From contig JANXLU010000053.1 in assembly GCA_025354985.1 (NCBI GenBank), forward strand, positions 1 through 64,000: 64,000 nucleotides of DNA. The letters run 5' to 3'. Origin of the DNA: Chloroflexota bacterium (GTDB lineage: Bacteria > Chloroflexota > Anaerolineae > J036 > Brachytrichaceae). The notes under the pieces were generated by a model. That model was not told the origin of the DNA, searched no databases, and saw only the letters and a program-made list of their open reading frames with translations. Positions 6,689 through 61,057 of this stretch are shown one piece after another (position 1 is the first letter of the stretch; the number at the start of each line of letters is the position of its first letter). The translations under genes were made by a program, and so were the position numbers.

Positions 6689-7744
6689 TTAGGTGGCTTT
6701 GAACGATTCAAACCCGCCAAGCACCGAAGTAATGTTTTGACCCAATTGCGCAATGGCATAGCCACCTTCCATCACAAATAGCGTGGATAAGTTAAGCTCC
6801 GCCAGACTGCGTCCAATCAGGGTGTAAGCCTCGTTAGTGAGAGCAAAGTCGCCCAGCGGATCACCCTCAAACGTATCAACGCCCAGCGATACGACCAGCC
6901 AGTTTGGACGATAGTCGCTGATCCGATCACAGGCTTGATCCAGAATTGTCAGATACGCGTGGTCATTGATTCTTGCGGGCAGCGGAATATTGATGGTCGC
7001 GCCGACTCCTTCGCCCTCGCCCACTTCTGCCGCGCCACCACTGAAGTATGGATACTGTCTATCCGGATCGGCATGGATAGACACGAACAAAACATCGCTG
7101 CGGCGATAGAAAATGTCCTGGGTTCCGTTGCCGTGGTGGAAGTCCACATCCAAAATCACAGCCCGCACCGGACCGGATGGTTCAGCCGTAGAGTGATCAA
7201 TAAGCCACTGCGCTGCGATGGCGGCATTGTTTAGAAAGCAATATCCACCGCATAAGTCTGCGTGCGCATGGTGCCCGGGCGGTCGACACAGCGCGAACGC
7301 CGATCGTGAGCCTTGTGAAAGCGCTTCCGCCGCGCAAATCGCTACTTGGGCCGAATCATAAGCGGCTTGGAACGTGCCATCCGTGATGACTGTTGTTGCG
7401 TCCAATGCATAGTATCCAAGCGCAGCCTTGGGGTGGTTTGGGCGCCTTTTGAGCTGTCGTACCGCAAACGTGTCTGCGACCGCACCCGAGGTACTCCCAC
7501 CCGCCGCGAGCCATGCCGGGTAGGCGCTCTTAAACCAGTCCAAATAGGCCGAATCATGTATAGCTCGGATTGGTTCCCAACCGTGATCCGTCGGCAACCG
7601 AATTTCATGTCCGCCTGCTTCCCGAAGAGCTGTCAGGACTATGTTCGCCCGCGTCGGCGACTCCTGATATGGGATCAGCGCTCCTTCAAAAAACTCGTGC
7701 ACCGGCGCGTGCAACTGATGGGTGGATGAATGGTAAATGATCAC
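6689..7744 (-). CDS. Histone deacetylase-family / acetylpolyamine amidohydrolase-like protein
   Basis: A 351-residue zinc amidohydrolase of the arginase/deacetylase fold. Visible motifs are RPPGHHAHA (catalytic His158-His159), LDVDFHHGNGTQ (metal Asp and His) and SLGVDTFEGDP. Bacterial members deacetylate acetylpolyamines or other small acetylamides. I chose the GTG at 7744, which gives MIIYHSSTHQLHAP, the usual family start, and which lies 7 nt after a TATAGT box. The ATG at 7768 would overlap the divergent glycosylase gene and lies upstream of this promoter. First gene of an operon with the SDR and reductase. Confidence 0.85.
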   Translation of the reverse strand: MIIYHSSTHQLHAPVHEFFEGALIPYQESPTRANIVLTALREAGGHEIRLPTDHGWEPIRAIHDSAYLDWFKSAYPAWLAAGGSTSGAVADTFAVRQLKRRPNHPKAALGYYALDATTVITDGTFQAAYDSAQVAICAAEALSQGSRSAFALCRPPGHHAHADLCGGYCFLNNAAIAAQWLIDHSTAEPSGPVRAVILDVDFHHGNGTQDIFYRRSDVLFVSIHADPDRQYPYFSGGAAEVGEGEGVGATINIPLPARINDHAYLTILDQACDRISDYRPNWLVVSLGVDTFEGDPLGDFALTNEAYTLIGRSLAELNLSTLFVMEGGYAIAQLGQNITSVLGGFESFKAT

Positions 7745-7751
7745 GCGCCTC

Positions 7752-7759
7752 ACTATAAT
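7752..7759. promoter_or_regulatory. Overlapping divergent -10 boxes, both leaderless
   Basis: The octamer ACTATAAT reads TATAAT on the plus strand (7754-7759) and TATAGT on the minus strand (7757 to 7752). Each ends exactly 7 nt before a start codon: ATG at 7767 (plus) and GTG at 7744 (minus). Only 22 bp separate the start codons. I see no good -35 match on either side; each would lie in the opposite coding region. Confidence 0.7.
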
Positions 7760-7766
7760 CATTTTC

Positions 7767-8354
7767 ATGGCTGACTTGACTGAATTGGGCTCAGAGGTAA
7801 CCGCTTGCCAGCGCTGTGGATTATGTAAAACCCGATTGCACGCCGTTCCAGGCGATGGGCCGGTCAGCGCCAGGCTGATGTTTATCGGCGAAGCACCCGG
7901 AAAGCAGGAGGATCAGCAGGGTCGACCCTTTATCGGGGCAAGTGGCAAGTTCCTCACCCACCTGATCGCTCGCGCCGGGTTTCAGCGTGAACAAGCCTAT
8001 ATTACGAACGTGGTCAAATGTCGACCACCAGATAATCGCGATCCGCGACCCGAAGAAATCGTCGCGTGTGCATCATTCCTGGATCGGCAAATCGCGCTCA
8101 TAAATCCAGCTGTGATCGTAACGGTTGGGCGGATCAGCATGGCGCGGTATTTTCCCAATGAGAAAATTTCGGCTATCCATGGTCAGGCCCGGCAGATTAA
8201 CGGGCGGCTCGTGGTTGCGATGTATCACCCAGCGGCCGCGCTGCATCAGCCCGCATTACGGACCACGTTGCAAACCGACTTTGACGCCTTGCGGCTGTTG
8301 CTAGACAAGCAGTTTGGGGTGGATCAGGGCGCAACACAACGCGCGTCACCCTGA
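7767..8354 (+). CDS. Family 4 uracil-DNA glycosylase
   Basis: A 195-residue iron-sulfur uracil-DNA glycosylase that removes uracil produced by cytosine deamination. The four [4Fe-4S] ligands are Cys14, Cys17, Cys85 and Cys101. The catalytic segment GEAPGKQED and the later MYHPAAALHQ loop are intact. The ATG at 7767 is preferred to upstream in-frame codons because TATAAT ends 7 nt before it and the protein then begins as family members do. The gene ends 36 bp before the convergent PIG-L gene. Confidence 0.9.
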   Translation: MADLTELGSEVTACQRCGLCKTRLHAVPGDGPVSARLMFIGEAPGKQEDQQGRPFIGASGKFLTHLIARAGFQREQAYITNVVKCRPPDNRDPRPEEIVACASFLDRQIALINPAVIVTVGRISMARYFPNEKISAIHGQARQINGRLVVAMYHPAAALHQPALRTTLQTDFDALRLLLDKQFGVDQGATQRASP

Positions 8355-59140: not shown

Positions 59141-60268
59141 TTAGCTCAAGGTCACATCGGAATATTTGGCCAGTCCATCGGGATCTATCGTTATCCCAAG
59201 GCCGGGTCTGGTCGGGATTTTGAGCAAACCCTCGTCATCCAATTCAAATGGGGTGGTGACGATCTCCTCTATGTAGGGTGAGGGTGTGAGGTATTCGACC
59301 CATCGCGCCACAGGTACTGCTGCTGCCAGGGCCAGATCGGCGGCCAGCCCAACCGCCGTGTTCCAACCATGGGGCACCCAAAGCACATTGTGATCCTGAC
59401 ACATCCAGGCAATACGACGCGCCTCGCTCAGCCCGCCGCATTTGGTGCAATCCGGTTGGATAATGTCGAGCGCATTCCGCGCGATCCATGGCGCAAAGGA
59501 TTGCCTGCGGGTAAAAACCTCGCAGCTTGCAATCGGCACCGGCGAGTGTTCGCGCAGCTTGACATAACCCTCAATGTCATCCGGCGGGAGTGCCTCTTCA
59601 AACCAGGTGATGTCATAATCCTTGAGCATGCGAGCGGTTTCTATCGCCCACTTATAGCTGTGCGGCCAAAATTGTTCGCTCCCACCCGCGTCCACCATCA
59701 GTTCCACATCCGGGCCAACCGTATCTCTGGCCGTTTTCACCAGTAATTCATCCAGCTTGTTGCTCACCCGGCCAAATGGTCGCCAACCCATTTTGATGGC
59801 CTTGAACCCGCGCGCCGTAGTCGCACGCAGCGTATCGCGGAGTTTTGCCGGTTCGTCAAACAGGATCGATCCATATGGTTTGATCCGGTCACGATAAATG
59901 CCTCCCAGCAGCCTTGAAACCGGTTGATTCGTGACTTTACCGAGTATGTCCCACAAGGCGATGTCTATCCCGCTGATGGCGTGTTCCACGCTGCCACCGC
60001 GCCCTTGCCAGAAGGCCATCTGCCTCAGCCTTTCGCTCACCCGTTCCGGCTCAAGTGCGTTCTCACCAACACTCCATGGACGCAATAGCTGCAAAGCGCC
60101 TTCGACAAGCGCACCGCTAGTGAATACACTTCCGATTCCCATCACGCCTTCGTCGGTCATCACCTCGATAAGTGTGTGCAGGTTGTTGGCGGGGTCAAAG
60201 TCATGAGTCCAACCACCGTCCGGCGTTTTACCACGCAACGGGATGGCTCGTATGGTTTGTATGTTCAT
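59141..60268 (-). CDS. Enolase-superfamily dehydratase (mandelate racemase/MLE group)
   Basis: A 375-residue enzyme of the enolase superfamily. Seen are the lid domain, a Lys in GFKAIKMGW, the metal ligands in VDAGGSE, WFEEAL and PIASCE, and the C-terminal WVPHGWNT with a His. Members dehydrate acid sugars such as galactonate, rhamnonate or glucarate. The neighbouring uptake and sugar genes support this. TATGAT ends 8 nt before the ATG, sharing its bases with the divergent promoter. Confidence 0.85.
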   Translation of the reverse strand: MNIQTIRAIPLRGKTPDGGWTHDFDPANNLHTLIEVMTDEGVMGIGSVFTSGALVEGALQLLRPWSVGENALEPERVSERLRQMAFWQGRGGSVEHAISGIDIALWDILGKVTNQPVSRLLGGIYRDRIKPYGSILFDEPAKLRDTLRATTARGFKAIKMGWRPFGRVSNKLDELLVKTARDTVGPDVELMVDAGGSEQFWPHSYKWAIETARMLKDYDITWFEEALPPDDIEGYVKLREHSPVPIASCEVFTRRQSFAPWIARNALDIIQPDCTKCGGLSEARRIAWMCQDHNVLWVPHGWNTAVGLAADLALAAAVPVARWVEYLTPSPYIEEIVTTPFELDDEGLLKIPTRPGLGITIDPDGLAKYSDVTLS

Positions 60269-60275
60269 TTCTGTG

Positions 60276-60282
60276 TATCATA
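60276..60282. promoter_or_regulatory. Palindromic shared -10 element between divergent genes
   Basis: TATCATA serves both strands: TATCAT on plus (60276-60281) and TATGAT on minus (60282 to 60277). Each ends exactly 8 nt before a start codon (ATG 60290 and ATG 60268). The start codons are 21 bp apart, the closest in the window. No convincing -35 is visible on either side. Confidence 0.7.
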
Positions 60283-60289
60283 CGATGTC

Positions 60290-61057
60290 ATGAGTGCGCT
60301 TCGTTTTGCATATAGCACCATCAATTGGGGAGAATTTTGTGATCTGGCCGGATGCCTGGCAGAGATTCGAGTTACAGGCTGGACCGCAGTAGAGCTGTTC
60401 GCTCACTCGTTGGAGTGGATGGGGATGCCCAAACAGTTACATGAGGTGTTGGGTTCATTGCACCCGGCCACGCTGTTTGGTTCCGTTGAGTTGCCTGCAA
60501 GCGAGCGCCAGCGGGTCATTCACAAACACCGGATCGATTATTGCGCCGCCATTGGGGCCGACGCCTATGGATTGGTGGGCGCGGGGCGTCCGCGGCATCG
60601 TCCCCCAACGTCCAGCGAGATTCATGATCTTGCCGATTTATGCGAAGACTTGGCCACATATGGCGTTGATCACGGAGTCACGGTTGCCTATCATCCTCAC
60701 ACGCGGTGCACGGTTCAATATGCCCATGAAATTGACGAATTGCTGTCCGCTACGCGCCACCTGACGTTGTGCCTGGATGTTTCCCATGTCGCGCTGGTTG
60801 GTGAGGATCCACTGGCGCATATCACCAAGTATCGCGACAGACTGGGCTACATTCACTTAAAGGATTGGGGGCGCGGCGACTTTGTGGAGTTGGGCCGTGG
60901 CGCCCTGGGTCTGGACTTTGGTGCCTGTCTTGCTCTGTTGCAGAGGCAATCTTTTACCGGTTGGATCGTCATCGAACAAAGCACCAGCGATGTGTCGGCG
61001 GTGCACAGCGCACAGCTAAACGCGGCATATATCAAAGGTATGGGATACACGCTATGA
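60290..61057 (+). CDS. Sugar phosphate isomerase/epimerase (xylose isomerase-like)
   Basis: A 255-residue TIM barrel of the AP-endonuclease 2/xylose isomerase family. Metal-binding residues are seen in the HPH of YHPHTRC, in LDVSHVA and HLKDWG, and a final Glu in VIEQS. It probably interconverts a keto and aldo sugar or inositol-type intermediate. Its start at 60290 is 8 nt after the shared -10 box. It overlaps the next gene by 4 bp (ATGA). Confidence 0.8.
   Translation: MSALRFAYSTINWGEFCDLAGCLAEIRVTGWTAVELFAHSLEWMGMPKQLHEVLGSLHPATLFGSVELPASERQRVIHKHRIDYCAAIGADAYGLVGAGRPRHRPPTSSEIHDLADLCEDLATYGVDHGVTVAYHPHTRCTVQYAHEIDELLSATRHLTLCLDVSHVALVGEDPLAHITKYRDRLGYIHLKDWGRGDFVELGRGALGLDFGACLALLQRQSFTGWIVIEQSTSDVSAVHSAQLNAAYIKGMGYTL

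Follow-up and report, generated by a model that had tools for sequence, protein, structure and literature searches.

The 64,000-nt stretch of DNA analyzed here (the window) belongs to a 4.19-Mb Chloroflexota genome in 98 contigs and carries two divergent genes separated by a very short gap (Table 1). One encodes a family 4 uracil-DNA glycosylase (UDG), which scores 199.9 bits against the TIGR00758 UDG_fam4 model (cutoff, 125.3) and can thus be placed in that family. The other encodes a histone-deacetylase-fold protein (HDAC; a deacetylase/amidohydrolase), for which the match to PF00850 Hist_deacetyl (233.5 bits; cutoff, 27.9) is at the superfamily level. No functional link between the two genes is evident. 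Because the gene caller used cuts the 5′ ends of both, their starts were taken from homology. The UDG starts of family orthologues correspond to ATG 7767, with those of congeners differing by a few codons, and the HDAC N terminus read from GTG 7744 aligns with the ATG starts of family orthologues at the same residue or one codon off. The longer in-frame alternatives, ATG 7737 for UDG and ATG 7768 for HDAC, found no support from homology.

Table 1. Genes and promoter-like features at the UDG/HDAC locus and at a second divergent pair in the window
Feature	Position	Strand	Basis or comment
HDAC-fold gene (deacetylase/amidohydrolase), 351 aa, GTG start, predicted leaderless	6689..7744	-	PF00850, E 5e-69
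Intergenic region, 22 bp (7 + 8 + 7)	7745..7766		Sequence; starts assigned by homology
Shared core ACTATAAT, combined span of the two overlapping -10-like hexamers	7752..7759		Sequence; fused-pair scan with control spacings
HDAC -10-like hexamer TATAGT	7757-7752	-	7 nt 5′ of GTG 7744
UDG -10-like hexamer TATAAT	7754..7759	+	7 nt 5′ of ATG 7767
Family 4 uracil-DNA glycosylase gene, 195 aa, predicted leaderless	7767..8354	+	PF03167, E 3e-37; TIGR00758
Second fused divergent pair	60266..60292	TATCAT 60276-60281 (+), TATGAT 60282-60277 (-)	Fused-pair scan

Positions 7742 to 7769 read, in order, CAC, GCGCCTC, ACTATAAT, CATTTTC, and ATG. The two hexamers, TATAAT on the plus strand and TATAGT on the minus strand, overlap by 4 bp, with TATA at 7754 to 7757, and the start bases of the two genes lie 23 bp apart, which gives the predicted spacing of the transcription start sites. 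A preliminary description of this DNA had laid out the same geometry, including the 4-base overlap and the 7 nt between each hexamer and its start codon (ATG 7767 or GTG 7744), and it was right at every coordinate. Two features count against the HDAC side of a shared core: TATAGT is one off the consensus, and GTG is weaker as a start codon.

The UDG hexamer is widely conserved. We compared 28 genomes of the family; a search at the order level returned the same 28. A hexamer with at least 5/6 matches lies 7 to 10 nt 5′ of the UDG ATG in 18 of 22 family orthologues, across several genera, and in 14 it is an exact TATAAT. Thirteen family orthologues have the exact sequence 8 to 9 nt from the ATG, and four more have a 5/6 hexamer at 8 to 10 nt; the orthologues of genus g3 have no -10-like hexamer 7 to 10 nt 5′ of the ATG. 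The best UDG matches beyond the family are mostly from Chloroflexota, and at three UDG loci of Anaerolineae/Chloroflexi beyond it, TATAAT lies well upstream, with a leader.

The divergent UDG/HDAC arrangement is found in genus g1 only, and the genes are apart in other genera. In the congeners G003 and G002, a gap of about 160 bp holds two separate -10 sequences: GATAAT-N6-ATG precedes HDAC, and TATAAT-N9-ATG precedes UDG. Conservation of the fused core in the congeners is thereby ruled out. Both genes thus look leaderless or nearly so in genus g1, but the -10 fusion, as judged from the sequences of the relatives compared, is specific to the species of the window. The base A7752 (plus strand), which supplies the last T of the minus hexamer, is absent in 17/17 other UDG orthologues compared, so that among these orthologues it is found only in the species with an adjoining HDAC start. 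The proposal of a shared core with leaderless starts, also made in the preliminary description, thus gains comparative support that is strong for UDG (18/22) and moderate for HDAC (two congeners and the A7752 test). The gap in the congeners also contains a hairpin repeat (G003:C5:21629-21668 and G002:C337:251-301), the arm of which, GCCGATTGCACTATAT with its variants, is dispersed in both genomes (96 matches in G003 and 79 in G002 with ≤2 mismatches) and is absent from the genome of the window.

Signals of the same kind recur in this genome, for which all counts come from a 742-kb sample (about 18% of the total) containing 612 called genes. In that sample, TATAAT-like hexamers (≥5/6) are most frequent 6 to 9 nt 5′ of the starts of divergent genes (11, 7, 7, and 7, i.e., 32 among 172 divergent genes), compared with about 1 per position farther upstream, and Shine-Dalgarno-like motifs occur in just 9 to 18% of genes, depending on the class. 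Leaderless-type starts are therefore enriched, and Shine-Dalgarno motifs are scarce, in this sample. This agrees with published findings: a TATAAT-type signal marks leaderless genes of Chloroflexi (PMC3160421), and transcription in Deinococcus can be driven by a -10 motif on its own (PMC12340547). At the locus itself, no Shine-Dalgarno sequence was seen before UDG; a GAGG lies 3 nt 5′ of the HDAC GTG, which is probably too close, although it may act as a weak Shine-Dalgarno sequence. A TANNNT-like hexamer, placed as in TA-led leaderless genes, is present 7 nt from the start on both sides. The preliminary description had also claimed that each coding region holds the -35 element of the other gene, but this did not hold up: neither side has a match better than 3/6, which is also the most frequent score in shuffled sequences, no -35 hexamer lies 16 to 18 nt 5′ of either -10 as in a classical σ70 promoter, and a search of 7500 to 8050 on both strands found no σ70-type two-hexamer promoter. 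Likewise, the 64 leaderless-type starts in the genome sample gave no clear -35 signal relative to shuffles.

The fused core is real and, to judge by these comparisons, probably functional, and we consider it likely that it serves as a bidirectional promoter from which both mRNAs are leaderless. RNA polymerase with the housekeeping sigma factor would bind the 8-bp pseudosymmetric ACTATAAT in either orientation. In one orientation, transcription would start at A7767, or no more than about 2 nt from it, and yield a leaderless UDG mRNA; in the other, it would start at or near G7744 and yield a leaderless HDAC mRNA. A -35 element would apparently not be needed in this organism, as has been demonstrated experimentally for -10-adjacent leaderless genes of Deinococcus. 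As to origin, the HDAC start probably came to adjoin an older leaderless UDG promoter, and A7752 would have completed the minus hexamer; this order of events is inferred, since the promoters are separate in the congeners and the pair occurs in no outgroup.

The main alternative is that the UDG promoter alone is real, that the symmetry of TATA accounts for the minus hexamer, and that HDAC is transcribed, with a leader, from a promoter inside UDG, its start codon being possibly ATG 7768 or GTG 7744. Because TATA reads the same on both strands, one further A is nearly all that the minus hexamer requires. Of 50 exact TATAATs in this genome, 8 (16%) have by default a hexamer of ≥5/6 on the opposite strand at this offset, so that what chiefly needs explaining is where the GTG lies rather than the presence of the hexamer. 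Strong TATAAT conservation is, moreover, seen for UDG only, and the HDAC orthologues of other genera have no -10 at the matching distance and are not obviously leaderless. However, 7500 to 8050 has no two-hexamer promoter match on either strand, the congeners place GATAAT six nucleotides before the HDAC ATG, and the completing A is missing from all 17 UDG orthologues that have no neighbor start at the matching distance. The HDAC GTG, which has no good Shine-Dalgarno sequence, also agrees with the starts of its orthologues. We consider this alternative unlikely, though it deserves some weight.

A bidirectional core could also act as a regulatory switch, in which polymerase bound in one orientation represses the other gene and couples DNA repair to deacetylase expression. 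Because the -10 elements overlap, the geometry excludes simultaneous binding, and occupancy by polymerase in both orientations at once is sterically implausible. Competition at the UDG/HDAC core, as suggested in the preliminary description, is thus possible, and in Escherichia coli one direction, when strongly activated, can repress its opposite; however, five bidirectional promoters of that species had basal activities so low that competition played no part unless one direction was strongly activated (PMC12825309). The lack of an evident functional link between UDG and HDAC, the separation of the pair in congeners and in other genera, and the failure to identify a regulator site at the locus also speak against a switch, and such coupling seems improbable. 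Finally, it is very improbable that the HDAC direction alone, or neither direction, is active and that base composition happened to leave a TATA tract in the compact gap: the symmetric pattern with 6-nt spacings on both sides is not enriched over its reversed control (see below), but the UDG -10 is kept at 7 to 10 nt across several genera, and hexamers peak at 6 to 9 nt genome-wide.

The UDG/HDAC core would be a new member of an already known class, the bidirectional promoters. These are defined by divergent start sites 7 to 25 bp apart (PMC10268837), and where -10 elements are shared, spacings of 18, 10, and 23 bp are common (PMC12825309); a further trait of the class, -10 elements that overlap or have key bases in common between the strands, is likewise present here (4 bp). 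The promoters described by Warman et al. (Nat Microbiol 2021), as presented in PMC12825309 and PMC10268837, have the same divergent starts flanking a common, pseudosymmetric -10, and the predicted spacing here is also 23 bp. Unlike in that presentation, the predicted transcription starts here coincide with the start codons, the overlap is 4 bp, the discriminators are 7 nt, and no -35 is visible. A 4-bp overlap with 7-nt discriminators may differ in configuration from the 23-bp class as those two papers describe it. The TA-led leaderless genes of other studies (PMC3160421; for Deinococcus-Thermus, PMC12340547) share the -10-like hexamer near the start, with no Shine-Dalgarno sequence and usually no -35, but those studies cover single genes, whereas here two starts point outward from one core.

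Divergent promoters often lie close together (PMC3898074). In Mycobacterium tuberculosis, a different phylum, prpD (Rv1130) and the divergent regulator gene Rv1129c are adjacent and both have mapped leaderless mRNAs (PMC3898074). The EcoRV restriction-modification system also has divergent promoters with overlapping polymerase sites and coupled transcription but, unlike the transcripts predicted for UDG/HDAC, its C transcript is not leaderless and is regulated by the C protein (PMC5333194). A narrow literature search found no precedent for leaderless and bidirectional transcription from one core. If confirmed, the locus would be a near-minimal two-gene regulatory unit, in which 22 bp hold the promoter for two mRNAs with no leaders, and bidirectional promoters would extend to a lineage without transcript maps.

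Fused cores recur beyond this locus. Among 86 divergent pairs in the 742-kb sample, two are fused (≥5/6 hexamers on both strands, 6 to 9 nt from the starts), and there are none at each of four control spacings; both lie within the window. The second (Table 1) is located between genes of the MR/MLE enolase superfamily (PF13378/PF02746; minus strand) and a xylose-isomerase-like TIM barrel protein (PF01261; plus strand). Its hexamers share five bases and lie 8 nt from both ATG 60290 (+) and ATG 60268 (-); the two neighbors are not adjacent in the relatives checked. Family-wide, the symmetric pattern with 7-nt spacings on both sides (7/7) occurs at 12 sites, compared with 1 for the reversed control; only 4 or 5 of the 12 lie between two long open reading frames (ORFs), four being clear divergent gene pairs and a fifth doubtful. 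The 7/6 pattern occurs at 22 sites (10 in the control), and the 6/6 pattern shows no enrichment (6 versus 6). Some 6/6 or 7/6 sites also lie between real genes, and many sites lack a long ORF on at least one side. The symmetric arrangement thus exceeds chance expectation only in part.

A divergent pair of glycosyltransferase 2 (GT2) and Zn-ribbon genes in the sister genus g3 (L151 to L155) is, by sequence comparison, the best candidate for recurrence of a fused core. It keeps the fused core in 5/5 species, with GATTATACTTT invariant, flanks variable, and 6 to 7 nt to both starts. In most genera in which the Zn-ribbon gene does not have the glycosyltransferase neighbor, TATACT lies 6 to 10 nt 5′ of its ATG. 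Taking UDG and Zn-ribbon orthologues together, we asked where the opposite-strand hexamer is completed (A2, T6). Of the orthologues whose divergent neighbor starts at the matching distance, 6/6 have it; of those without such a neighbor, where "without" means that no partner was detected, 1/35 does. This comparison was devised after the sequences had been inspected, and the five g3 species probably represent one event, so that it amounts to about two independent cases. It supports, short of proof, selection for the second direction. A hexamer that is present only with a neighbor start at the right distance would provide a simple route for bidirectionality to evolve.

A broader reading, which we advance tentatively and rate at somewhat under an even chance, is that in this family a change of one or two bases immediately 5′ of the -10 turns -35-independent leaderless promoters bidirectional, so that divergent genes can be packed at a distance of about 22 bp without any untranslated DNA. 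If so, the two cases of the window and the five-species GT2/Zn-ribbon pair would represent a recurrent minimal two-gene promoter. We also observed a perfectly symmetric ATTATAAT core around 1501 in L178 and L180 (G002 and G003), 6 nt from a GTG on both sides; the plus-strand ORF there resembles an MXAN_6640-type putative metalloprotease, below the cutoff. In L186 and L202 (G006 and G010), again around 1501, a divergent lipoprotein-like pair has a common ATTATAAT core with diverged flanks.
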